Source: Frateuria soli (lineage in GTDB: Bacteria > Pseudomonadota > Gammaproteobacteria > Xanthomonadales > Rhodanobacteraceae). Taken from it: a stretch of DNA of 64,000 bases. A program made the position numbers and the translations under genes. The notes under the pieces are model-generated. The model was not told the DNA's origin and searched no databases. It saw only the letters and a list, made by a program, of their open reading frames with translations. The DNA lies in the NCBI RefSeq assembly GCF_021117385.1, contig NZ_CP088252.1, positions 310,001 to 374,000 of the forward strand, read 5' to 3'. The number at the start of each line of letters is the position of its first letter. The first letter of the stretch is position 1. Below, in pieces: positions 10,959-25,007 of the stretch.

Positions 10959-13877
10959 ATGGAAGCCAGCCGCGACAGCGATTACCTGCCCCACGACGGC
11001 CCACTGCGCGAGGACGTCGGCCGGCTTGGCCAGCTGGTCGGCCAGATGCTTGCCGAGCAGGGAGGCGAGCGCTTCTTCGAGCGGGTGGAGGCGGTGCGCC
11101 AGGCGGCCATCCACCGTCGCCGCGAGGGCGACCCGGTGGCCACGCTGGCGCACGCGCTCGACGGGCTGGACACCGACCAGGCCGAGGCCCTGGCGCGCGC
11201 CTTCGCCACCTATTTCCAGGCGGTGAACATCGCCGAGCGCGTGCACCGCATCCGCCGCCGCCGCGACTACCAGTGCGAGGGCGGACCGCCGCAACCGGAG
11301 TCGCTGCTGGACGTGCTGGGCGGGCTCAAGCGCGAGGGCGTCAGCGCGGACGAGTTGCTCGGCTGGCTCGCGCGGCTGTGGATCGAGCCGGTGTTCACCG
11401 CGCACCCCACCGAGGCGATGCGCCGCTCGCTGCTGGAAAAGGAACAGGCGATCGTGCGCGCGCTGGTCGACGGCTTCGACCCGGGCCGCACACCGCAGGA
11501 GCGCGCCGAGGACCAGGACCGCATCTACATGGCGCTGTCGACCGGCTGGCAGACCGCCGAGGCCTCGCCGGTGCGCCCCACGGTGCAGGACGAGCACGAT
11601 CACGTCGGTTTCTATCTGTCCAACCCGATCTACCGCATCGTGCCGGCGCTGTACGAGTCGCTGGCCGGCGCCCTGCAGGCGGTCTATGGCGTGGCCCCGC
11701 CGCTGCCGCGGCTGCTCGGTTTCGCCAGCTGGGTCGGCGGTGACATGGATGGCAATCCCAACGTCGGCGCCGACACCATCGCGGCCGCGCTGGCGACCCA
11801 GCGCGCACACGTGCTGGAGCGCTACATCGACGACGTCGCCGCGCTCGCACGACTGCTCAGCCAGACCGCCGGGCGGGTCACGGTCGACCCGGCGCTGACC
11901 GAACGTCTGGCCGACTACCGCACGCGCTTCCCGAAGGCTGCGGCGCGCATCCGCCCGCGTCATGCCGACATGCCCTACCGCTGCCTGCTCACGTTGATCG
12001 GCGCGCGTCTGGAAGCGACCGGCGACAATGGCGCGGAGGGCTACGCCTCGGCGACCGAACTGCTGGACGACCTGCAGCGGATCGACCACAGCCTGCTCGG
12101 CCACCGCGGCCTGCACGCGGGCGCCTATCCCGTGCGACGGCTGATCTGGCGCGTGCGCACCTTCGGCTTCCATCTCGCGCGGCTGGACGTGCGGCAGGAC
12201 TCGCGCGTGCACGACGATGCGCTGGCCGCGCTGCTGGACGACGCGGACTGGGCCAGCCGGCCCGCCACGGACCGGGCGGACCGGCTGCGCGGCTACGCGG
12301 CGGGGGGCGAGCGCTTCGCCATCAGCCATGCCGATGCCGTGACCGCGCTGTACGACGTCTTCGCCACGCTGGGGGATGCCCGCCGGCGCTACGGCAGCGA
12401 GGCGATCGGGCTGTACATCATCAGCATGGCGCGCTCGGCGGCCGACGTGCTGGCGGTACTGGCGCTGGCGCGCTACGGGGGGCTTGTGCACCCGGCTCCC
12501 GTCCGGGGAGAGGGCTGGAATGAGGGCCAGCCGTTGCGAGAAGCCAGCAACGAAGCGCCAGGCTCTGCTCCCTCTCCCCTCCGGGGAGAGGGCCGGGGTG
12601 AGGGGGCGCTCTTGCGGGGAAGTGGCGGCGAAGCGCAGGCTTCAACAAAGTCCCCCGCGAGTCCCGGCCCCTCACCTCAATCCTCTCCCCGGAGGGGAGA
12701 GGAAGCTGGGTGCGCGGTGCCTTTGGACATCGCCCCGCTCTTCGAGACCATCGACGACCTCAAGCACGCTCCGGCCACCCTGCGAGCCCTGCTCGACGAC
12801 CCCGTCTACCGAGCCCATCTGCGTTCCCGCGGCGATCGTCAATGGGTCATGCTCGGCTACTCCGACAGCGGCAAGGACGGTGGCACGCTTGCCTCGCGCT
12901 GGGCCCTGCAACGGGCACAGGTGGAACTGCTCGAAGTGGCGAGGGAGGCCGGCATCCACCTGGCCTTCTTCCACGGCCGCGGCGGTTCGGCCAGCCGCGG
13001 CGGCTCGCGCATCGCGCCGGCGCTGATGTCCTCGCCGCGCGGCTCGGTCGCCGGCGTGCTGCGGGTCACCGAGCAGGGCGAGGTCATCCACCGCAAGTAC
13101 GGCATCCGAGCGCTCGCCCTGCGCAACCTTGAGCAGACCGTCGGCGCCGTGCTGCGCGCCTCGCTGCGCCCGCGCGCGCAGGAGTCGCGCGAAGCACGCT
13201 GGCGCGAGCAGATGGAAGCGCTCGCCGCGCACAGCCGCCGCCACTACCGCGCACTGGTCGAGCGCGACGGCTTCGTCGACTACTTCCGCACCGCCACCCC
13301 GATCGACGTGGTCGAGCGCATGACCCTGGGCTCACGCCCCGCCAGCCGCCGCAGCATGCGCGGCGTCGAGGACCTGCGCGCGATCCCCTGGGTGTTTGCC
13401 TGGACCCAGTGCCGATCGATCATCACCGGCTGGTACGGCCTCGGTTCCGCGCTGGAGCAGGGCGCCGCCACCTTCGGCGAACAGGCGCTGGCCGCCATGG
13501 CGCGCGACTGGCCATTCTTTGCCAACGCGCTGGACGACGTGGCGATGGTGCTGGCCAAGTGCGACCTGGACATCGCCGAGGCCTTCTCGCGCCTCGCCGG
13601 CGACCTGCACGCGCCCTTCTTCGCGATGATCCGGGAAGAATTCGAACGCACCCGACGCTGGCTGCTGAAGCTCAAGGGCGGCGACGCGCTGCTCGCCGAC
13701 AACCCGCGGCTGGCCGTCTCGATCCGCCTGCGCAACCCCTACGTCGATCCCATGAGCCTGCTCACCGTCGACCTGCTCGCGCGCTGGCGCGATGGCGGCA
13801 GCGAGGACGACGCCCTGCTGCGCGCGCTGGTCGCCTGCGTCAACGGCGTGTCGCAGGGCCTGCAGAACACCGGCTGA
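10959..13877 (+). CDS. ppc: Phosphoenolpyruvate carboxylase with repeat-derived internal insertion
   Basis: A 972-residue enzyme that carboxylates PEP to oxaloacetate, replenishing the TCA cycle. The catalytic histidine is H149 in [58 protein letters not shown] and the terminal QNTG are intact. It is about 80-90 residues longer than usual (E. coli 883). The excess is residues 511-587, low-complexity Arg/Gly/Ser/Pro sequence translated from three family A repeats, placed just before [14 protein letters not shown]. The frame is kept. The start at 10959 follows CCAGGAAC. It is followed by 130 bp and then the export operon. Confidence 0.95.
12488..12717. repeat. Cluster of three family A repeats inside ppc
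   Basis: Copies at about 12494-12528 and 12563-12609 (direct) and 12669-12703 (inverted), all recognisable by CTCCCCTCCGGGGAGAGGG-like cores. The block is read through in frame as residues 511-587 of PEP carboxylase, where homologues have only a short loop. The mixed orientation would let the mRNA fold into a long hairpin. Confidence 0.9.
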
Positions 13878-13892
13878 TCGTCAGCCATAGCC

Positions 13893-13927
13893 GTCCGCCT
13901 GCGGATGGCGATCATCCGAAAGCGGAC
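13893..13927. promoter_or_regulatory. 35-bp nested dyad, candidate enhancer site for sigma-54 activator
   Basis: GTCCGC (13893-13898) and GCGGAC (13922-13927) enclose CGGATG (13902-13907) and CATCCG (13913-13918); both pairs share the same centre at 13910. It lies about 97 bp upstream of the start predicted from the sigma-54 promoter, a normal position for an NtrC-type activator site. It is 16 bp after the ppc stop, so a ppc mRNA hairpin is an alternative, but no T-tract follows. Confidence 0.5.
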
Positions 13928-13979
13928 GCCTTGGCTGCGCGTTGCCTCGCGCAGGCGCGGTGTGGCGCGGCGCCGGCGG

Positions 13980-13996
13980 TTGGCACGCCTGTTGCC
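13980..13996 (+). promoter_or_regulatory. Sigma-54 promoter of the export operon
   Basis: TTGGCACGCCTGTTGCC matches the -24/-12 consensus TTGGCACG-N4-TTGC, with the GG (13982-13983) and GC (13994-13995) dinucleotides exactly ten bases apart. The predicted transcript start, about 12 bases past the GC, falls at or next to the ATG at 14008, so the mRNA would be nearly leaderless. That agrees with the lack of a ribosome binding site there. Confidence 0.7.
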
Positions 13997-14007
13997 AACA
14001 CTCCCCC

Positions 14008-15261
14008 ATGGATATCGCCAACAGCTCCCTCAAGCTGCGCAAGCGCCGGCAACTGCGTTGGGGCGTCGCCATCGGCGCGCTCGCGGCCGTGGCGCTGGCG
14101 GCCGTCCTCCTGCGCCTTGGTCCCGCGCTGCCTGTGGCCGAGCGGTCCAGCCTGTGGATCGATGTCGTGCAGCAGGGCGACATGCTGCAGGAGGTGCGCG
14201 CCACCGGCACGCTGGTGCCGCGTTCCAGCCGCTGGTTGGCGGCAGCCACCGCGGCGCAGGTGCAGGAGATCCTGGTCTGGCCGGGCGCCACCGTGGCGCC
14301 GGACACCGTGCTGATGCGCCTGGCCAATCCCGAGGTGGAGGACGCCCTGCGCAACGCGCAGGCCCAGGTTGAGGCGGCCGAGGCGGAGGTGGCGGCCAAG
14401 CGCGCGGAACTGCATTCGCAGTTGCTGGACGAACGCGCCGCGCTGGCCCAGGCGCAGTCCGACTACGCGCAGGCGCAGGTCAAGGCGCAGGCCGATGCCA
14501 AGGCGGTACAGAAGGACCTCATTCCCCGCGTGCAGTACCAGCAGGGTCTGATCGCGCTGAAGCAGCTCAAGGCCCGCATGCAGATCGAGCAGGAACGCGT
14601 GGACAGCTTCGCCGGCAGCATGAAGGCACAGATGGACGCGGCCCAGGCGCATGCGTTGCAACAGCGCAGCAACCTCGTGCTGCGCCAGCGCCAGGCCGAC
14701 GCGCTCAACGTTACCGCCGGAATACCCGGTGTGCTGCAGGAAGTGGCGGTGCAGGAAGGCGCACGCGTGGGCGAGGGCGCTAACCTGGCTCGCGTGGCCC
14801 GGCCGGACGTGCTGATCGCGCGCCTGCAGGTGCCCGAGGTGCAGGCCAAGGACGTGGCGATGGGCATGCCGGTCAGCGTGGACACGCACAACGGGCTGGT
14901 GCCCGGCCGGGTGGAACGGATCGATCCGGCGGTGCGCAACGGCAGCGTCCAGGTCGACGTGGCGCTGTCCGGCAAACTGCCGGCCGGTGCGCGGCCGGAC
15001 CTGTCCGTCGACGGTCGCATCCGCATCGCCCAACTGGCTCACGTGCTCTCGGTGGGCCGCCCGGCGCTGGCCAAGGCCGACAGCGACCTGAGCCTGTTCC
15101 GCTTCGATCCGGCCGGCGACACTGCCACGCGGGTGCCGGTGCGCGTGGGCGCCGCCTCGGTCGACCGCGTGCAGGTGCTGCGTGGCCTCAAGGCGGGCGA
15201 CCGGGTGATCCTGTCCGACACCAGCCAGTGGGACGGTTATGACCGCATCCGCGTGGAGTAA
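14008..15261 (+). CDS. Periplasmic adaptor (membrane-fusion) protein, HlyD/MacA type
   Basis: A 417-residue adaptor anchored by one transmembrane helix (about 20-37). It has a barrel/lipoyl segment near residues 60-110, a long Ala/Gln-rich coiled-coil hairpin (about 112-235), and a C-terminal barrel with LKAGDRVILSD near the end. In MacAB-like systems this protein links the inner-membrane ABC transporter to an outer-membrane channel. It is the first gene of the operon; the ATPase follows after 102 bp. No Shine-Dalgarno precedes the ATG at 14008, consistent with a leaderless transcript from the sigma-54 promoter. Confidence 0.9.
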   Translation: MDIANSSLKLRKRRQLRWGVAIGALAAVALAAVLLRLGPALPVAERSSLWIDVVQQGDMLQEVRATGTLVPRSSRWLAAATAAQVQEILVWPGATVAPDTVLMRLANPEVEDALRNAQAQVEAAEAEVAAKRAELHSQLLDERAALAQAQSDYAQAQVKAQADAKAVQKDLIPRVQYQQGLIALKQLKARMQIEQERVDSFAGSMKAQMDAAQAHALQQRSNLVLRQRQADALNVTAGIPGVLQEVAVQEGARVGEGANLARVARPDVLIARLQVPEVQAKDVAMGMPVSVDTHNGLVPGRVERIDPAVRNGSVQVDVALSGKLPAGARPDLSVDGRIRIAQLAHVLSVGRPALAKADSDLSLFRFDPAGDTATRVPVRVGAASVDRVQVLRGLKAGDRVILSDTSQWDGYDRIRVE

Positions 15262-15339: not shown

Positions 15340-15363
15340 ACATCGACAGCAAAGGTGCACGAA

Positions 15364-16125
15364 ATGAATCCGACCGACGTCATCACCCTCGAGGGCATCC
15401 GCAAGATCTTCCAGACCGACGAGGTGGAGACCCATGCGCTGTCCGACGTGCACCTGACCGTCGCCCGCGGCGAGTACGTCTCGATCTCCGGTCCCTCCGG
15501 CTGCGGCAAGACCACGCTGCTGTCGATCCTGGGCCTGCTCGACACCGCCACCGACGGGCGCTTCGTGCTCAACGGCCACGACGTGGCCGCGCTGGACGCG
15601 GCCGAGCGCGCGCGCATCCGCAACGCCGAGATCGGCTTCATCTTCCAGGCGTTCAACCTGATCGGCGACCTGTCGGTGTTCGAGAACGTCGAACTCCCGC
15701 TCACCTACCGTGGCGGCATCGGCGCCAACGAGCGCCGCGCGCGCGTGCAGGAAGCGCTGGAACGCGTGGGCATGGCCCACCGCATGCGCCACTACCCGGC
15801 GCAACTTTCCGGCGGCCAGCAGCAGCGCGTGGCGGTGGCGCGCGCGCTGGTCGGGCGGCCGGCGATCCTGCTTGCCGACGAACCGACCGGCAACCTCGAC
15901 TCGCGCAACGGCGAGGCGGTGATGGCGCTGCTGGACGAGCTGCACAAGGGCGGCGCCACCATCTGCATGGTCACCCACGACGCGCGCTACGCGGAGTTGG
16001 CGCAACGCAAGATCCGCCTGTTCGATGGCCGTGTGGTCGACGAGGAGACCTTCCACCGCCTGCGCCGCGAGGACGAGCAGCGCCTGGATGCGCTGATCGG
16101 CCAGCGCATCGAGCTCGGCGCGTGA
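15364..16125 (+). CDS. ABC transporter ATP-binding protein, MacB/LolD class
   Basis: A 253-residue nucleotide-binding subunit. Walker A GPSGCGKT (43-50), Q-loop region FQAFNL (94-99), signature LSGGQQQR (148-155), Walker B ILLADEPT (168-175) and the H-loop THD are intact. It should power the permeases encoded immediately downstream. An in-frame GTG three codons earlier is possible, but AAAGG is well spaced only for the ATG at 15364. The stop overlaps the next start (GTGA). One ATPase serves three permease genes. Confidence 0.93.
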
Positions 16126-18605
16126 ACGTCTGGCTCGCCGAGATCTGGCGTACCTGGCGCGCGAGTTTGCGGCGCCCCGGTTTCCTGCTGCTGGCCGTCG
16201 CGGTGCTGGCGCTGGGCGTGGGTGCGAGCACGTCGGTGTTCGTACTGGTCGACAACGTACTGCTGCGACCCTTGCCTTATCCCGATGCCGGCCGCCTGAT
16301 GGTGCTTGGCCCGGAACAGCACGGGGAGCTCCAGGCCATCCTGTCGCCGCAGCAATACCAGCACGTGCAGTCGATTCCGGGCATCGCCGGCATCGGGCTG
16401 ATCAAGGGCGACCTGCAGGCGGTCAACGTGGCCGGCGACGGCGAGCCCGAACAGGTCGACGCATTCCTGGCCGACCGGAGTGTGCTGCCCGTGCTCGGCG
16501 TGCGGATGCGGCTGGGCCGGGGGTTTTCCGCGGAGGAAGATCGTCCGGGCGGGCCCAAGGCGGTGATCCTGGCCGAAGGATTCTGGCGGCGCCGTTACGG
16601 CGGTCAGCCCGTGCTCGGCCGCACGTTGCGCGTCGAAGGCGTCGCACGCACCATCGTGGGCGTGTTGCCGGCGAGCTTCGACCAGTTCGGCGCGGGCGAC
16701 ATCATGCTGCCGCTGGCCTTGCCGCCGCACACCTACGACGACGGCGCCGACTTCTTCGCGATCGCCCGGCTGGCCCCCGGCAGCTCCGTCGCGGCGGTGA
16801 ACGCGCGGGTAGATGCCGCCATCCGCGCCATGTACGCCGATCTTCCCGGCGCGCAACGGGATTACTTGGAAACGGTTCACGTCGGCAGCGTGCCGCTGGC
16901 GGCCGCGCTGCACCAGCAGCAGCGGCCGGCGATGCGGCTCTTCCTGGCCTGCGCCGTGTGCGTGCTGCTGATCGCGCTGGTCAATCTGGGCAACCTCATG
17001 CTGCTGCGCACGCTGTCGCGCCGTCACGATGCGATCGTGCGACACGCACTGGGCGCGCCGGGCTGGCGCCTGGCGTTGCCGGCCTGCGCCGAGGGCCTGC
17101 TGGTGGGCGCCAGCGGCGCCATCGCGGGCCTGGGCCTGGCCGCGATCGGCCTTTCCCTGTTCGGTCGATATGTTCCCGTCGAATGGACGCACGGGCGGTC
17201 GCTGCACGTTCACGGCGAAGCGGCCCTGCTGGCGCTGGCGATCGCCGTGCCGGGCGCGCTCGCCGCCGCACTGTTCGGTGCCTGGCGTGGACTCGCCGCA
17301 AGCTCGGTACGCGAGGCGCTCCATGAAGGCGGCCGCAGCCTGGGGAGCCACAGCGGGCGCGTGGGCAAGGCGCTGGTGATCGCGCAGATGGCCCTGGCGA
17401 CGTGTCTGATGTGCGGCGCCGGCCTGTTCCTGCATGCGCTTTACGACGCGGCGCGCGCCCCGCTGGGGTTCGCCGGCGACCACGTCCTCACCTTCGACTT
17501 GGCGCCGGTGCGGGGCGAGCACCCCGATGCCGCCTCCACGCGGGAGTTCGTGCAGGAGTTGCTGCGCAGCCTCCGCGCCTTGCCGGGCGTCGAGGGTGTC
17601 GCCGCCACCAATGGGCTGCCCGCGGGCGGGTTCGAACAGCAGTTCAACATGGGCGGCATCCACCTTCCGGGCAGCGACTACCTCCGGCCCAGTCCACAGA
17701 TTCGGGCGGTCAGCAGCGACTACTTCTCCGTGTTCCGCATTCCCGTGCACGAAGGGCGCGCCTTCGACGCCTCCGACGTGTCCGGCGGCGATCCCGTGGC
17801 CATCGTGAACCAGACGCTGGCCGAGCAGGAGTACGGCGACCATGCGGTGGGCAAGCAGATCGTCGTCAACGACTACAGCGGCTACGCGGCGGGGAAGGCA
17901 ACGGCCGACCGGCCGGACATGCGCCCGGTGACCGCGCGCATCGTCGGCGTGGTCGGCGACACGCGGCAGTTTGGCCCGCTGGACGGCCGCAAGCGCGGCT
18001 TCCTCTATCTGCCCGTGGGGCAGGTGCCCGAACACATCCTGCGGGTGTTCCGCTCCTACCACCCGTTGCGTTTCGCCTTGCGCGTGCAGGGCGACCCCAA
18101 CGACTACCGCCGGGCCGTCCATGCCGCCGTCGCCGCCGTCGCGCCGGACCAGCCGATCGCCAGCGTGTCGACGATGGACGACGTCGTGCGCGCCACCACC
18201 GGCGACACGCGTCGTGACCTGTTCCTGATCGGCCTGTTCGCACTGCTGGCGCTGGGGCTCGCGGCGGCGGGCATGTACGCGGTGATGACCGTCGCGGTGA
18301 CCGCGCGCCAGCGCGAATTCGGCGTGCGCATGGCGCTGGGCGCTCCGCCGGCGAGGATGGCGCGCCTAGTGCTGCGTGGAGGCGCCGGGCAGATCGCGAT
18401 CGGCATGCTGCTGGGCGTGGCCATCACGCTCGCCCTGTCGCGGGTGCTCGGTGCAGTGCTGGAGGACATCGGCCGCACCGTGATGGACCCGCTCGCGCTG
18501 GCCGGCGTATGCGTCGTGCTGGCCATGGCCGGGCTGCTGGCCTGCCTGCTGCCCGCGTTGCGCGCCGCGCGCGTCCCTCCGATGCACGCGTTGCGCGGGG
18601 AGTAG
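16122..18605 (+). CDS. ADOP/MacB-type ABC permease 1
   Basis: An 827-residue duplicated permease. An N-terminal helix with ALGVGASTSVFVLVDNVLLR is followed by a MacB-like periplasmic domain, an FtsX-type three-helix block (about 265-410), a second periplasmic domain and a final FtsX block ending CLLPALRAARVPPMHALRGE. This architecture and length match the ADOP (acidobacterial duplicated orphan permease) family; such mechanotransmission permeases usually drive export or envelope processes rather than import. The GTG start at 16122 overlaps the ATPase stop. It is closely related to the next gene over its whole length. Confidence 0.9.
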   Translation: MNVWLAEIWRTWRASLRRPGFLLLAVAVLALGVGASTSVFVLVDNVLLRPLPYPDAGRLMVLGPEQHGELQAILSPQQYQHVQSIPGIAGIGLIKGDLQAVNVAGDGEPEQVDAFLADRSVLPVLGVRMRLGRGFSAEEDRPGGPKAVILAEGFWRRRYGGQPVLGRTLRVEGVARTIVGVLPASFDQFGAGDIMLPLALPPHTYDDGADFFAIARLAPGSSVAAVNARVDAAIRAMYADLPGAQRDYLETVHVGSVPLAAALHQQQRPAMRLFLACAVCVLLIALVNLGNLMLLRTLSRRHDAIVRHALGAPGWRLALPACAEGLLVGASGAIAGLGLAAIGLSLFGRYVPVEWTHGRSLHVHGEAALLALAIAVPGALAAALFGAWRGLAASSVREALHEGGRSLGSHSGRVGKALVIAQMALATCLMCGAGLFLHALYDAARAPLGFAGDHVLTFDLAPVRGEHPDAASTREFVQELLRSLRALPGVEGVAATNGLPAGGFEQQFNMGGIHLPGSDYLRPSPQIRAVSSDYFSVFRIPVHEGRAFDASDVSGGDPVAIVNQTLAEQEYGDHAVGKQIVVNDYSGYAAGKATADRPDMRPVTARIVGVVGDTRQFGPLDGRKRGFLYLPVGQVPEHILRVFRSYHPLRFALRVQGDPNDYRRAVHAAVAAVAPDQPIASVSTMDDVVRATTGDTRRDLFLIGLFALLALGLAAAGMYAVMTVAVTARQREFGVRMALGAPPARMARLVLRGGAGQIAIGMLLGVAITLALSRVLGAVLEDIGRTVMDPLALAGVCVVLAMAGLLACLLPALRAARVPPMHALRGE

Positions 18606-18666: not shown

Positions 18667-21108
18667 ATGAACGTGTGGTTGGCCGAAATCGCCCGCGCCT
18701 GGCGCGCCAGCGTGCGCCGGCCCGGCTTCCTGCTGCTGGCCAGCGGCGTGCTGGCGCTGGGCATCGGCGCCAGCATGGCGGTACTGACCCTGATCCAGAA
18801 CACGGTGCTGAGGCCGTTGCCGGTGCCGCACGCAGAACGGGTGGTGGTACTGGGGCCGCGGTGGGACAACGGTCACGTGGGCGGCATTTCGCCCCACGAA
18901 TACCAGTACCTCGGCCCGCCCGAAGGCCTGCGTTCGCTGGGGCTGGCGCACTTCGGCGCGGCGGTCAACATCGCCGGCGCCGGTGATCCCGCGCAGGTGC
19001 CGGTAATCCGGATCGATCGCCACTTGCTGCCCACGCTGGCCCTGCGGCCGGTGCTGGGACGCAACTTCAGCGCGCAGGAGGACGGTCCGGGCGGACCGAG
19101 AGCGGTGCTGCTCGGCTACCACCTGTGGCAACGCGTGTACGGTGGGGATGCCGGTGTCGTCGGTCGTCGGCTCGACATCGAAGGACGGCCGCACACGATC
19201 ATCGGCGTGCTGCCGGCGGCCTTCAACAAGCTGCTGGGTCCGGGCGACGTGATACTGCCCATCGCGTTGCCGGTCGCCAGTCGCGACTACAACCACAATG
19301 GCGCCATCGCAATCGGGCGGCTGGCCGATGACGTGGAGGTGGCAACCGTGGCCGCGCAGGCCGACGCGCACGAGCGCGCGATGTTCCGCGACATGGGCAT
19401 GGGCGGGAACTGGGCGCGTCCACGCTTCGGCGCCGAACCCCTGGCCGATGCTTTCCAGCAGCAGACGCAACCGATGCTGATGGTGTTTCTGGCCAGCGCC
19501 CTGATCGTGCTGCTGATCGCGCTGGTCAACCTGGCCAACCTGATGCTGCTGCGCGCGCTCTCGCGCAATCACGACCAGGCCGTGCGCGGTGCCCTGGGCG
19601 CTCCCTTGCTGAGGTTGATGCTGCCGGCGCTGGGCGAGGGCCTGCTGGTCGGCGCATGCGGCACGCTGCTCGGCATGGCGCTGGCCGCCGCCGCCCTCGC
19701 CATACTGCAGGGTTTCATCCCCGCCTACTGGCTTTGGGGCGGAAGCATCCACATCGGCGCAGGCGCCTGGCTGCTCGCCGGCGGTATCGGATTGCTCGGC
19801 GCCCTGCTGGCGGCCTTGCTGGGTTTGTGGCGCAGCCGTGGCGCATCGACGCTCGAGGAACTGCGCCAGGGTGGGCGCAACGGCATCGGTTCGCACAGCG
19901 GTCGCCTGAGTCGTGCGCTGGTCGTCGCGCAGGTGGCGCTGGCGGCGGTCCTGCTGGGCACGGCCGGGGTTTTCATGCATGCGCTGTACGACGCCTCGCG
20001 GGTGCAACTGGGTTATGACCAGCACAACGTGCTTACCTTCGAGCTGGCCCCGGTGCGGGGCGATTACCCGGACATGGCCTCCGTGCTGGATCTTTCCCAC
20101 CGGCTGGAACAGCGGCTGCGCGCGGTGCCCGGGGTGACCGGGGCGGCCGTGACCACCAATCTGCCGACCAGCGACGACAACTACGGCTCGTTCAACAACG
20201 GCATGCGCACGCCGGCGGGCGATGAATTCCAGGCCCAGCTCCACGGCATCGGGCAGGGCTTCCTGAAGCTGTTCGCCGTTCCGTTGCGTGAGGGCCGCGA
20301 CTTCGCGAATGGCGACGTGCGCGGCGGCGAACCGGTGGCGATCGTCAGCCAGGACCTGGCCGAGCGGTACTACCGCGGACATGCGCTGGGGCAGGTGATC
20401 GACGTGGAGATCCCGAACGGCACGCCAGTGCGTGCGCGCATCGTCGGCGTGGTCGGTGCCACCTACCAGCGCGGGCCGCTGCAGCCGCACCAGCCGGTGG
20501 TGTACCTGCCGCTGGCGCAGATGCCGGCAGCGACGATGGCGGTCTTTCGTCAGTTCGAGTCGCTGCGGTTCGCGCTGCGCGGCCGTGGCAACCCGGCAGA
20601 CTGGAGCGCGGGCGTGCGTGCCGCGGTGGCCGAAGTGGCCCCGAGGCAGCCCATCGCAAGGCTGCGCACGATGCACAGCATCGTCCTTGCGACCACCGCC
20701 GAGGCGCGGCTCAACCTGATGCTGATCGGTGTGTTCGCCTCGCTGGCACTGCTGCTGGCGGTGGCGGGCCTGTATGCGGTCATGGCGGTAGCCGTGGCCG
20801 CGCGCGAGCGCGAGCTCGGTGTGCGCCTGGCGCTGGGCGCGCCGCCCGCGCGGCTGGCGCGGCTGGTCCTGCGCGGCGGCTTGCTGCAGATCGGCCTGGG
20901 TCTGGCGATCGGTATCGCCGCGACCCTCGGCCTGTCGCACGCCTTCATGGCGCTGCCGCTCATGATGCTCAACGGAACGCGCGGCTTCGATGCGAGCGTG
21001 GTCGGCGGCGTTTGCGTCGCGTTGGCCCTGGCCGGGCTGCTCGCCTGCCTGCTGCCTGCGTTGCGTGCTGCGCGCGTGCCGCCGATGCGTGCCTTGCGAG
21101 GGGAATGA
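18667..21108 (+). CDS. ADOP/MacB-type ABC permease 2 (paralogue of permease 1)
   Basis: 813 residues with the same two-FtsX-block layout as permease 1. The N-termini ([21 protein letters not shown]) and C-termini (CLLPALRAARVPP M.ALRGE) are almost identical while the periplasmic parts differ, which points to tandem duplication followed by divergence of the substrate-facing domains. GAAGGAAA precedes the ATG at 18667. It follows permease 1 by 61 bp and precedes permease 3 by 2 bp. Confidence 0.9.
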   Translation: MNVWLAEIARAWRASVRRPGFLLLASGVLALGIGASMAVLTLIQNTVLRPLPVPHAERVVVLGPRWDNGHVGGISPHEYQYLGPPEGLRSLGLAHFGAAVNIAGAGDPAQVPVIRIDRHLLPTLALRPVLGRNFSAQEDGPGGPRAVLLGYHLWQRVYGGDAGVVGRRLDIEGRPHTIIGVLPAAFNKLLGPGDVILPIALPVASRDYNHNGAIAIGRLADDVEVATVAAQADAHERAMFRDMGMGGNWARPRFGAEPLADAFQQQTQPMLMVFLASALIVLLIALVNLANLMLLRALSRNHDQAVRGALGAPLLRLMLPALGEGLLVGACGTLLGMALAAAALAILQGFIPAYWLWGGSIHIGAGAWLLAGGIGLLGALLAALLGLWRSRGASTLEELRQGGRNGIGSHSGRLSRALVVAQVALAAVLLGTAGVFMHALYDASRVQLGYDQHNVLTFELAPVRGDYPDMASVLDLSHRLEQRLRAVPGVTGAAVTTNLPTSDDNYGSFNNGMRTPAGDEFQAQLHGIGQGFLKLFAVPLREGRDFANGDVRGGEPVAIVSQDLAERYYRGHALGQVIDVEIPNGTPVRARIVGVVGATYQRGPLQPHQPVVYLPLAQMPAATMAVFRQFESLRFALRGRGNPADWSAGVRAAVAEVAPRQPIARLRTMHSIVLATTAEARLNLMLIGVFASLALLLAVAGLYAVMAVAVAARERELGVRLALGAPPARLARLVLRGGLLQIGLGLAIGIAATLGLSHAFMALPLMMLNGTRGFDASVVGGVCVALALAGLLACLLPALRAARVPPMRALRGE

Positions 21109-21110
21109 GG

Positions 21111-23552
21111 ATGATGCTGCCGAGGGAACTGCACACCGCCTGGCGCCGGCTGGCCCGGCGACCGGGTTATGCCGCGCTGTCGATCGGCGTGCTCGGCGTC
21201 GGGTTGGGCGTGGTGATCTTCCTGTTCAGTCTGATCAACACGCTGATCCTGACGCCGCTGCCGTTGCCGCACGCCGATCGGCTGATGGCGGTCGGCGAAC
21301 TCAATCGTGGCAACGGCAGCGCCGGCGACACCGGCATCGGCATCGGCGACGTCGATACCGACCAGTATCTGCGTCTGGCCGCCTCGCTGCGCGGCGTGGA
21401 CGCTACCGGTGGCTACCTTGGCGTGGGCGTGTCGCTCGACACCGGTGCCGGAGCCGCCCGCATGGACGGCGTGCGACTGACCGCCTCGATGCTCGACTTG
21501 CTGGGTGCACGGCCGCTGCTCGGCCGCGGCCTGCAAGCCATGGACGATCGGCCGGGCGCGCCGCCGGTGGTGCTGCTGGGCGAGGACCTGTGGCGGCACG
21601 CCTTCGGCGCGGATCCGCACATCGTCGGCCGTGCCGTGCGGATCAATGGCGACTGGGCCACCGTCATCGGTGTGATGCCAGCGAGTGTGGGCTTCCTCGG
21701 CGGCAGTCCCCAACTGTGGATGCCGTTGCGCCTGGACCCGGCGCACGGCACGGACCTGTACATGGTCGCCCGCCTGAGGGCGGGCACCACGCTTGCGGCG
21801 GCGCGCCAGGAGCTGTCAGCGCTGGATGCGCGCCTGCGCCGCGAGCTGCCGCAGTGGCGCGAGCAGCAAGCACTGGTGATCAAGCCGTTCACCACCAGCT
21901 TCGTGCAGGAAGACACCCGCCGCTGGGTCTGGCTGATGTTCGGCGCGGGGGTCCTGGTGCTGCTGCTGGCCTGCGTGAACGTGGCCAACCTGCAACTGGT
22001 GCAGACGCTCAACCGGCGACGCGAGATGGCCGTGCGCAGCGCACTGGGCTGCGGGCGTGCGCGGTTGATGGCCGGCGCGCTGGCCGAAAGCCTGCTGCTG
22101 TGCGCCGCGGCGCTGGCCATTGCGCTGCCGATCGTTCACTACGGCAATCGCTGGCTGCTGGCCACGTTCGCCGAGAGCGACAAGGCGCCCGCTTCGTTCC
22201 TGCGGTTCGGCATCGATGGCGGCGTGTTGGCCTTCACCGTGATCGCGGCGCTGGCGAGCACCGCACTGGCCGGCCTCGTTCCCGCGTGGCGCGCGGGTCG
22301 CACCGACCTCAAGGATGCGCTGCACGACGGCGGCAAGGGTTCCGCGGGAGGTTTCGCGCGGGTGGCCCGCGGGCTGGTGGTGGCGGAGATCGCGTTGACC
22401 GTGGTGCTGCTGGTCGGCGCCGGCATGTTCGTGCGCGCGCTCGACCATCTGCTTTCCCAGCCGCTCGCCGGCGCGCGGCACGCCGACCAGGTGCTCACCG
22501 CGCACGTCGCGCTGCCACGTTCGGCCTATCCCGACGCCGCCGCCCGAATCGGCTTCCTCGAGCGGGCCGGCGAACGCCTGCGCGTCGAGGCGGGCGTGCT
22601 GGCGGCGACGGCTACCAACACCGTGCCCGGGGCGGAGCTGGGCAGCCACGAAACGATCGCCGCCGAGGGCGAGTCGCGCCCGGCCGGAGGTTGGCCCGAA
22701 GCGCAGATGGGCATCGTCGATCCGCAGTTCCTCGACGTGTTCGGAGTACGGCTGCTCGAAGGCCGATTCTTCGATGTCCGCGACGCGGCCGGCGGTCTGC
22801 CGGTGGCGGTGGTGGACCGCAAGACCGCCGAGGCGCTTTGGCCCGGGCGCGACGCGCTCGGGCGACACCTGCTGCTCTATCCCGATCGCGACTACAGCCG
22901 CATGGTCACCGTGGTCGGCGTGACCGAGCCGCTGCAACTGGACAGCGCCCTGGAACAGCCGTTGCCCGGCCTGCTTGTGCCGCTCGCGCAGTCGGCAGAC
23001 ATGACGCCGCTGCAGGCCGTGGGCCTGGCTGTGCGGCTGCGCGGCGCCGCGGCCAGCTTCGCGCCGCGACTGGAAGCGGTGGTGCACGGGGTGGACCCAC
23101 AGGCTGCAGCCTACGCGCTGCGCAGTCAGGCCCGTGGCGCGGCCATGGACCGCGTCTACCTGGTCGTGTTGACCGAAGTGTTCGGTGCCCTGGGCCTGGT
23201 GGCGCTGCTGCTCGCCGCGGCGGGCCTGTATGGCGTGCTCGCCTTCTCCGTCGCGCAGCGCACGCGCGAGATCGGCATCCGTCGCGCGATCGGGGCCGGG
23301 CATGGCGCCGTGGTCCGCACGGTGGGTCGCCAGTTGTCCTGGCAGCTCGGGCTGGGGTTGGCGATCGGACTGATGCTGGCCTGGCCGTGGTCGAACCTGC
23401 TGGCCGATCCGGGCCTGCACACGCGAGGGCATGATCTGGCGGTCCTGCTGCCGGTCGTGGTGCTGGTGGCGGGCATCGCGTTGCTGGCGTCGTTGCTGCC
23501 GCTGCTGCGTGCGTTGCGCGTCGATCCGGCGGTGGCACTGAGGTACGAGTAG
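21111..23552 (+). CDS. ADOP/MacB-type ABC permease 3
   Basis: 813 residues, a more distant member of the same permease family: LHTAWRRLARRPGYAALS start, two FtsX blocks, and the typical ending LRALRVDPAVALRYE. GLYGVLAFSVAQRTREIGIRRA near the last block is the classic FtsX/MacB signature. ATG at 21111 (MMLPREL) follows GAGGGGA; the frame is open further upstream inside permease 2 but has no supporting signal. Two-base spacing to permease 2 implies coupled translation. A short family A repeat follows the stop. Confidence 0.9.
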   Translation: MMLPRELHTAWRRLARRPGYAALSIGVLGVGLGVVIFLFSLINTLILTPLPLPHADRLMAVGELNRGNGSAGDTGIGIGDVDTDQYLRLAASLRGVDATGGYLGVGVSLDTGAGAARMDGVRLTASMLDLLGARPLLGRGLQAMDDRPGAPPVVLLGEDLWRHAFGADPHIVGRAVRINGDWATVIGVMPASVGFLGGSPQLWMPLRLDPAHGTDLYMVARLRAGTTLAAARQELSALDARLRRELPQWREQQALVIKPFTTSFVQEDTRRWVWLMFGAGVLVLLLACVNVANLQLVQTLNRRREMAVRSALGCGRARLMAGALAESLLLCAAALAIALPIVHYGNRWLLATFAESDKAPASFLRFGIDGGVLAFTVIAALASTALAGLVPAWRAGRTDLKDALHDGGKGSAGGFARVARGLVVAEIALTVVLLVGAGMFVRALDHLLSQPLAGARHADQVLTAHVALPRSAYPDAAARIGFLERAGERLRVEAGVLAATATNTVPGAELGSHETIAAEGESRPAGGWPEAQMGIVDPQFLDVFGVRLLEGRFFDVRDAAGGLPVAVVDRKTAEALWPGRDALGRHLLLYPDRDYSRMVTVVGVTEPLQLDSALEQPLPGLLVPLAQSADMTPLQAVGLAVRLRGAAASFAPRLEAVVHGVDPQAAAYALRSQARGAAMDRVYLVVLTEVFGALGLVALLLAAAGLYGVLAFSVAQRTREIGIRRAIGAGHGAVVRTVGRQLSWQLGLGLAIGLMLAWPWSNLLADPGLHTRGHDLAVLLPVVVLVAGIALLASLLPLLRALRVDPAVALRYE

Positions 23553-23624: not shown

Positions 23625-25007
23625 ATGACCCGATCCGAACCCACCGTGTTGCTGGCCGACGACCAGGCCGACGTGCGCGAGGCGCTGCGCCTGCTGCTCA
23701 AATCCGACGGCCTCGCCAGCGTCACCGCCGAGGGACCGGCCGCGGCGCTGGAGGCGCTGCGCCGGCGCGAGTTCACCTGCGCACTGATCGACCTCAACTA
23801 CACCCGCGATACCACCTCGGGCGAGGAGGGGCTCGAGCTGCTGGCGAGCCTGCGCGAGCAGGCGCCGGAGCTTCCGGTGGTGGTGATGACCGCCTGGGGC
23901 AACGTGCCGCTGGCGGTGGAGGCGATGCGCCGCGGTGCTGCCGATTTCATCGAAAAGCCCTGGGACAACGCGCGCCTGCTGCGCGTGCTGCGCGCGCAGA
24001 TCGCGCTGGGCGAGGGCACGCGCCGGCAGCGGCGGCTGGAGGCCGAGAACGCGCTGCTGCGTGGTTCGACCGAGGCCATCGCCGAGTCCGCGCCGATGCG
24101 CCGCGTGCTGGAGATGGTCGCGCGCATCGCCCCCAGCGACGCCAACGTACTGGTGCTCGGCGAGAACGGCACCGGCAAGGGCGTGATCGCGCAGTTGCTG
24201 CACGAGCACTCCGCGCGCGCCTCGCGCTCGCTGGTGAAGGTCAACATGGGCGGCATTCCCGAGAGCGTGTTCGAGTCGGAGATGTTCGGTCACGTGCGTG
24301 GCGCCTACACCGACGCCAAGGGCGAGCGCATCGGCCGTTTCGAGCTCGCCGACGGCGGCACGCTGTTCCTGGACGAGGTCGGCAACGTGCCGGCCGCGCA
24401 ACAGCCCAAGCTGCTGCGCGTGCTGGAGGACGGCGAGTTCGAGCGACTGGGCTCCTCGCGCACGCAGCGTGTCGATGTTCGGCTGGTGTCGGCGACCAAT
24501 GCCGACCTGGATGCCGACGTCGCGGCGGGCCGCTTCCGCAAGGACCTGCTCTACCGGCTCAACACACTGGAAGTCCGACTGCCGCCGCTGCGCGAGCGCA
24601 GCGAGGACATCCTGCCGCTGGCACGCTCGTTCCTCGCGCGCAGCGCGCAGCGTTACGGCCGCGGCGGCCTGCGCCTGGCGCCGTCGGCCGAGCGCGCGCT
24701 GCTCGGCTGGCGTTGGCCGGGCAACGTGCGCGAGTTGCAGCACCTGATGGAGCGCGCCGCGTTGCTGGCCGAGCGCGACCAGGTCGACGCCGCGACGCTC
24801 AGTTTCGGCGCGCCGGCGCAGGCTCCGCAGGATCTCGACGGCATGACCCTGGAGCAGGCCGAAGCCTGGCTGGTCGCACGCGCGGTCGAGCGCCACGAAG
24901 GCAACCTGCAGCGCGCCGCCGACGCATTGGGCATTACGCGCCAGTCGCTGTACCGGCGGCTGGAGAAGCATGATCTGCGACCGGCGGGTACCGATGCCGG
25001 GGACTGA
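23625..25007 (+). CDS. NtrC-family response regulator with altered GAFTGA loop
   Basis: A 460-residue three-domain activator. The receiver has D12/D13, phospho-acceptor D56 in ALIDLNYT, and K111 in IEKPWD. The AAA+ domain has Walker A GENGTGKG (179-186) and Walker [11 protein letters not shown] (244-253). A Fis-type helix-turn-helix lies at about 424-447. The sigma-54 contact loop, normally GAFTGA, reads GAYTDA (226-231). It is probably the activator of this operon, binding the dyad at 13893. The start at 23625 ([14 protein letters not shown]) is favoured by family alignment; ATG at 23595 is an alternative. It is followed by its kinase with a 14-base overlap. Confidence 0.9.

Follow-up and report, generated by a model that had tools for sequence, protein, structure and literature searches.

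The window, by which we mean the whole 64,000-nucleotide stretch of DNA that was analysed, contains a cluster of seven genes for a predicted exporter and its regulators, preceded by a short control region. The features are as follows.

13893-13906, no strand: putative activator site (UAS site 1), GTCCG-CCTG-CGGAT, its centre 108 nt before the adaptor ATG, scoring 9/12
13914-13927, no strand: putative UAS site 2, ATCCG-AAAG-CGGAC, its centre 21 bp from that of site 1
13980-13996, forward strand: sigma-54 promoter TTGGCACGCCTGTTGCC, with a -24 element (TGGCACG) and a -12 element (TTGC), assigned from sequence and conservation
14007-14010, forward strand: conserved C followed by ATG, with a transcription start predicted from the promoter distance at the A or within ~1-2 nt of it
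14008-15261, forward strand: periplasmic adaptor of the HlyD/RND_mfp family (MDIANSS...), from domain and model searches
15355-16125, forward strand: ABC ATPase (MacB/LolD/DarD-like), alternative start ATG at 15364
16122-18605, forward strand: ADOP permease 1 (MacB_PCD and FtsX, duplicated), 630.9 bits, above the cut-off of 622.3
18667-21108, forward strand: ADOP-like permease 2, 610.4 bits, narrowly below the TIGR03434 cut-off of 622.3
21108-23552, forward strand: ADOP permease 3, 657 bits, above the cut-off, with a likely start at the ATG (about 21111) that follows the AGG codon at 21108
23625-25007, forward strand: NtrC-type response regulator and enhancer-binding protein (REC, Sigma54_activat, HTH_8) with a GAYTDA loop
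24994-26343, forward strand: histidine kinase with two N-terminal transmembrane segments, a very short loop and the motif HEVNNSLAPI; it overlaps the end of the activator gene

The earlier note on this DNA had read the cluster as an ADOP-type export operon, and the model searches agree, with permeases 1 and 3 passing the cut-off of the ADOP family (TIGR03434) and permease 2 falling just below it. The ADOP name refers to orphan permeases of Acidobacteria; the permeases here are not orphans, as they stand beside an adaptor and an ATPase. A search of the literature for the ADOP phrase returned no paper on function, judged by titles. Adaptor and ATPase genes are adjacent in 20 of 20 relatives, and the activator lies in the same stretch in 11 of these and the kinase in 10; of the nine relatives with no visible activator, two are short contigs, and in others permease genes run to the end of the stretch. 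The activator is found upstream of the adaptor in five loci (L050, L125, L133, L138 and L150), and in L050 both activator and kinase are divergent. The number of permeases in the 20 relatives ranges from one (L050) to at least six, and in several a second ATPase precedes the activator. In six loci (L040, L041, L042, L046, L047 and L051) a single adaptor and ATPase are followed by ADOP-like permeases numbering four to six or more. We also looked for substrate genes in the operon gaps and found nothing convincing among the matches listed.

The near-perfect -24/-12 promoter that the earlier note had placed directly before the adaptor gene is indeed present, as TTGGCACGCCTGTTGCC upstream of the ATG at 14008-14010. 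Its GG (13982-13983) and GC (13994-13995) are ten bases apart, giving the GG-N10-GC pattern in the context of TGGCAC and TTGC. Judged from the window alone, the case against a chance match is moderate: patterns with at most one mismatch occur six times in the 64 kb, with 6.7 expected, and TTGGCACGCCTGTTGCC is the sole exact match. The genome of the window contains one sigma-54 gene (rpoN) and seven clear activator genes, and TGGCAYNNNNNTTGCW occurs in it 10 times compared to once for the reversed control, although the window's own site ends in C and so is not among these 10.

What is decisive is conservation in relatives, which had been proposed beforehand as a test and in which both the promoter and the activator motif recur upstream of orthologous adaptors; this settles the predicted promoter as more than a chance match. 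A site was called when GG and GC were in register and the score was at least 9 of 12, and the start was taken as the ATG before Asp closest to the tblastn start. Removal of identical promoter-plus-start sequences reduced 152 rows to 134, of which 17 of Acidobacteriota/Verrucomicrobia type were counted apart; the 117 orthologous regions used here come from Lysobacterales and some unplaced Gammaproteobacteria. Twelve distant Gammaproteobacteria (L215-L226) and L214 (Lysobacterales, site at 14) stand outside the 152, the partial match G474 was left out, and L119 was counted from an ATG four bases on with its sequence left unchanged. A sigma-54 site was found in 101 of the 117 unique regions, always in the same place, whereas shuffled controls had one anywhere in 250 nt in 148 of 2340 regions. 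The rows share kinship, so these counts are not independent events.

The separate sets that make up this collection give a similar picture. The -24/-12 element is present in 21 of 21 cases when the window is taken together with 20 genomes that have an orthologous adaptor. Among 80 named loci (the best 80 of 577 relatives, partly repeating loci of the 21-genome set), 61 have a site 12-14 nt before the ATG. The other 19 comprise 17 titled Acidobacteriota, Verrucomicrobia or groups of these, together with L119, which has a frame break and whose site is 13 nt from the ATG four bases on, and L121, which has no site. In a sample of the order, the adaptor was detected at an E value of 1e-60 or better in 65 of 200 genomes. 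Among 51 loci from this sample, which partly repeat earlier loci and are spread over six family codes, 36 have a site, all at 12-14 nt, and 15 have none; when only loci at least 40% identical are counted, the site is present in 35 of 41. The 16 of 117 regions with no recognisable site include those 15 order-sample loci, which are mostly diverged (nine below 40% identity, six at 44-49%).

The distance between this promoter and the start codon is nearly constant. From the C of the -12 element to the A of the ATG there are 12 nt in 14 regions, 13 nt in 79 and 14 nt in eight, so that all 101 fall within 12-14 nt, and this spacing extends to relatives whose adaptors are about 40% identical. RNA polymerase containing sigma-54 starts roughly a dozen bases past the -12 element, and the usual bacterial start is a pyrimidine followed by A; the first base of the transcript should therefore be the A of the AUG or lie one to two bases before it. 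A start at this A would give a leaderless mRNA, one with no ribosome-binding leader. The base before the ATG is C in 94 of 101 regions. In the 79 promoters at distance 13, no other position between the -12 element and the ATG exceeds 60% for one base, while this last position is C in 94%; the three positions before it have a mild preference for G (49-57%). A loose spacer with a near-invariant C before the A is as expected of a pyrimidine-purine start at this A. In Campylobacter jejuni, the sigma-54 motif is located 8-13 nt upstream of the start (PMC3847290; this and the other published sources are drawn on in excerpt).

The sequence around the start codon is consistent with this reading. Shine-Dalgarno cores occur in only 3 of the 101 related promoters, and 13 of the 101 have an in-frame stop codon after the -12 element and before the ATG, ruling out a start further upstream in those 13. 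All 21 aligned adaptors share the same first two residues, Met1 and Asp2. We also considered a better start codon upstream of the adaptor ATG and rejected it. From the promoter distance we predict a leaderless adaptor mRNA with its 5' end at the AUG or within a few nucleotides of it. The start that the earlier note had predicted at 14007 fits the promoter distance, but its leaderless consequence, and the conservation of this in relatives, had been overlooked. As far as the aligned promoters can indicate, this conserved leaderless spacing is the unusual part of the locus.

The sigma-54 promoter could be real and yet feed mainly the downstream genes, with the adaptor translated from a leadered mRNA that arises at an upstream promoter or by read-through from ppc. 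The arrangement of the genes gives some reason to consider this, as ppc ends 130 nt upstream of the adaptor ATG in the same direction, and among 99 related stretches it precedes the adaptor in 27, at a distance of 133-1912 nt; however, it was not found upstream in the other 72, and no sigma-70-like site was found at 13700-14100. Because Shine-Dalgarno cores are so rare, a longer mRNA would mostly be without a ribosome site too, and the constancy of the promoter distance would be left unexplained. We consider this explanation unlikely, and favour a transcript that begins at the adaptor AUG.

A natural comparison is provided by a paralogous exporter in the same genome, whose adaptor (MIRDTSAQD..., G000:C1:2511558-2512826; L183, L059) is 27% identical to that of the window and is detected at an E value of 1e-70 or better in 53 of 61 genomes. 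Like the window adaptor, it lies behind a sigma-54 promoter, which is as strong as in the leaderless class; in contrast, this site is 35-55 nt upstream of the ATG in all 30 of the best-matching loci, so that the paralogue would be leadered where the window adaptor would be leaderless. An AGG-rich stretch often precedes the paralogue ATG. Nine of these 30 loci are in genomes that also have a predicted leaderless adaptor. An activator gene (GAYTGA, L067, at 2495916) lies about 15 kb from the adaptor of the paralogous exporter. By eye, a TGTCC...GGGACA palindrome overlaps the presumed Shine-Dalgarno sequence in the paralogue leader of several relatives.

More distant versions of the adaptor itself also differ in spacing. 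In the 12 loci from distant Gammaproteobacteria (26-39% identical), the site lies at 30-52 nt in six and is missing in six. The 17 Acidobacteriota/Verrucomicrobia-type loci have it at 15-18 nt (five loci), 24-27 nt (four) or 229 nt (one), and seven have no site. In four Acidobacteriota loci (L130, L133, L138 and L148) the site is 24-27 nt before the ATG and, by eye, an SD-like stretch lies between the two; these may be natural leadered versions of the same promoter. Leaderless spacing is thus a trait of one large adaptor clade, with leadered forms outside it, and is not universal in the adaptor family.

We also asked how often this spacing occurs at other genes. One (L057) of ten other sigma-54-like sites in the genome of the window is at leaderless distance, and in three relatives the matching gene starts 109-185 nt past the site, which suggests that this gene starts much further downstream. 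A search for the leaderless-distance pattern returned matches in 57 of 61 genomes, exceeding the reversed control in most, and eight candidates among the matches listed were checked. The idea that these genomes have many leaderless sigma-54 genes was rejected. Two of the eight (L287 and L288) have longer frames at leaderless distance, with a more usual-looking Met 14-19 codons on. L283 and L289 contain short frames only. The remaining four (L281, L282, L284 and L285), from four genomes of the same family, have a sigma-54-like site before a conserved small gene (MTIEDNVADESG...RMRIETTVLM...), which in three of them starts 109-185 nt after the site. Given the frames at L287 and L288, the export operon cannot be claimed as the sole candidate for a leaderless sigma-54 gene.

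Upstream of the promoter, the 35-bp nested dyad described earlier is present as GTCCGC-CTG-CGGATG-GCGAT-CATCCG-AAA-GCGGAC at 13893-13927, with its centre at 13910, 97 bp before 14007. Comparison with relatives suggests a different unit. The palindrome TGTCCG-N4-CGGACA, first spotted by eye in the same sequence set that was later scored, matches at 10/12 or better in 56 of 75 related upstream regions compared to 1.25% of dinucleotide shuffles; the 75 regions leave out nine known duplicates and the 17 Acidobacteriota/Verrucomicrobia-type loci. The centres of these matches cluster around 107-109 nt upstream of the start codon. A second site scoring at least 8/12 lies 20-22 bp from the best one in 43 of 66 regions, while control offsets, twice as many in number, give 7 of 66. 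A palindromic element is thus conserved, but the single nested dyad was rejected as its unit, since two tandem palindromes about two helical turns apart explain the relatives better. The window's own copies score 9/12, a level reached by 10.5% of shuffles. The exact pair is unique in the genome, and at up to three mismatches there are four matches per strand compared to 15 for the reversed control. We considered and rejected a wider regulon governed by this pair: the sole other place at two mismatches, 696789, is intragenic, and the control pattern is commoner.

The position of the dyad, which starts 15 nt past the ppc stop codon, and the strong predicted fold of its RNA (-36.3 kcal/mol, z -4.84) suggest that it might instead be a 3' hairpin or terminator of ppc, although both roles could coexist. 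The dyad has neither a T-run nor a terminator call, and the recurring unit in relatives is a set of separate 16-bp palindromes 20-22 bp apart. Furthermore, relatives in which no upstream ppc was found, such as L041, L105, L106 and L109, have the motif at a similar distance from the ATG, and since ppc is upstream in only 27 of 99 stretches, a ppc 3' hairpin, strong as it is here, cannot be the general explanation. We regard this role as quite unlikely to account for the element, and treat the palindromes as putative activator sites.

The last two genes of the cluster had been assigned to an activator and a kinase, in agreement with our domain searches. The response regulator has the REC domain, AAA+ sigma-54 interaction domain (Sigma54_activat) and Fis-type helix-turn-helix (HTH_8) of an enhancer-binding protein, and is NtrC-type by domain make-up only. 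In place of the canonical GAFTGA loop it carries GAYTDA. All 41 linked activators in rows at least 51% identical have GAFTDA or GAYTDA; these rows include the window's own, and some loci were fetched twice. The other six activators of the genome have GAFTGA, GSFTGA or GAYTGA.

Such a change raises the question of whether the protein resembles others with a damaged loop and is a regulator of the sigma-70 type. Damaged GAFTGA loops have been taken as a sign of lost sigma-54 dependence (PMC3162934), and VfmH of Dickeya, which has GAFTDA, pulled down no sigma-54, though the study does not decide whether the Gly-to-Asp change is to blame (PMC10714721). Against this, the NorR G266D mutant, with the same Gly-to-Asp change, bypasses its regulatory domain and activates transcription constitutively, still forming open complexes (PMC2941729), and two activators of Desulfovibrio vulgaris, one with GAFTDA and the other with GAYTDA, have predicted sigma-54 regulons (PMC4641369). 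The linked operon here is itself preceded by a conserved sigma-54 promoter and UAS. A sigma-70-type role is thus very unlikely in our view, and the GAYTDA protein is best read as a sigma-54 activator. Promoters of the leaderless class have a less strict -12 element than those of the paralogue: the first T of TTGC is present in 58% of 101 promoters compared to 30 of 30, and A or T follows GC in 69% compared to 29 of 30. This looser element might accompany the GA[F/Y]TDA loop of the linked activators.

For the kinase, the label 'NtrY-type' is not supported. None of the 25 models listed, out of 57, reached its cut-off, and no NtrY model is among those 25; the best model is AtoS, at 96 bits compared to a cut-off of 646, and NR(II) scores 69.3 compared to 240. 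The supported part of the circuit first proposed is a sigma-54 promoter and UAS before an ADOP-type operon with an NtrC-type activator and a kinase of its own. Hydropathy predicts two or more transmembrane segments in 18 of 24 kinase rows, including the window's, where they are about seven residues apart, so that a periplasmic sensor domain is absent here. The H-box motif HE(V/L)NNSLAPI is present in all 22 rows that reach it. The kinase may sense within the membrane or through the transporter.

The exporter resembles several known systems. With MacAB-type tripartite ABC exporters it shares the HlyD-type adaptor, a MacB/LolD-like ATPase and permeases with FtsX and MacB_PCD domains, and MacB heads the sequence matches of permease 1 to PDB entries. 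It differs in having a separate ATPase, three ADOP-type permeases and no outer-membrane channel gene among its seven genes, and also in its own NtrC-type two-component pair and predicted leaderless promoter. Models of the darobactin exporter DarBCD are the best for the ATPase (252.9 bits) and the second-best for the adaptor (62 bits), but both are far below the equivalog cut-offs of 375 and 450. The BceRS-BceAB detoxification module combines an FtsX-type exporter with its own two-component pair, including a two-TM short-loop kinase. The window operon is alike in all three respects, the short extracytoplasmic loop of its kinase being judged by hydropathy only; unlike BceRS-BceAB, it has an NtrC-type activator predicted to act on sigma-54, as well as an adaptor and periplasmic domains.

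Sigma-54 control of FtsX-type exporters is not new in principle, having already been predicted: a 2025 survey found FtsX-like ABC permeases enriched behind predicted sigma-54 promoters in Gammaproteobacteria, Opitutia and Bacteroidia (PMC12316311). The predicted sigma-54 ABC antimicrobial peptide transporters in the excerpts of that survey came with no leaderless start, linked GAFTDA activator or xanthomonad. Mapping in Sinorhizobium meliloti gave 171 leaderless starts, and sigma-54 promoters were predicted there (PMC3616915). We did not find a conserved leaderless sigma-54 start among the matches listed in the open PMC literature, nor in the excerpts of PMC3616915, PMC3847290, PMC5243855 and PMC9723704; supplementary tables may hold single cases.

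Taken together, we think it probable that 13893-14010 controls an export operon that regulates itself, with a sigma-54 promoter and a leaderless adaptor start. The aligned sequences show the promoter, the UAS motif, the linked activator with an altered loop and, within one large clade, a fixed spacing from promoter to AUG; from these we infer the actual 5' end, dependence on sigma-54, a common transcript, phosphorylation and autoinduction. A membrane-borne cue, perhaps the working state of the transporter itself, would activate the short-loop kinase, which would phosphorylate the operon's own NtrC-type activator. A hexamer of this activator could then nucleate on the two tandem UAS sites at 13893-13927, and its GAYTDA loop would remodel or open the sigma-54 RNA polymerase held at 13980-13996. 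The first transcribed base would be the A of the adaptor AUG or lie one or two bases ahead of it, and the adaptor would be translated from a leaderless 5' AUG, with adaptor, ATPase, three ADOP-type permeases, activator and kinase on one transcript. With the activator and kinase genes at the end of the operon, induction would feed forward, raising their own level. Envelope defence, which the earlier note had suggested, is only one possible role.

Leaderless mRNAs can be translated by intact 70S ribosomes, and their translation withstands some of the inhibitors that block ordinary initiation. One tentative and rather doubtful idea is that these promoters form a sigma-54 class in which the start site is the start codon, kept across a bacterial order, and that the leaderless route lets an envelope exporter be made while initiation is blocked, for example by an antibiotic that the exporter removes. 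If so, the operon would be all-or-none in transcription, through sigma-54 and a constitutive-type GA[F/Y]TDA activator, and buffered in translation.

If the predicted 5' end is true, the locus has a sigma-54 promoter at exactly the leaderless distance, and some of the genomes that contain it offer a natural control in the leadered paralogue. Activator-driven transcription and leaderless translation are seldom considered together; the locus would connect the two fields and would provide a defined system for asking why the first gene of an operon should go without a leader. The family would also supply natural activators bearing a change of the NorR G266D type in the loop that contacts sigma-54.
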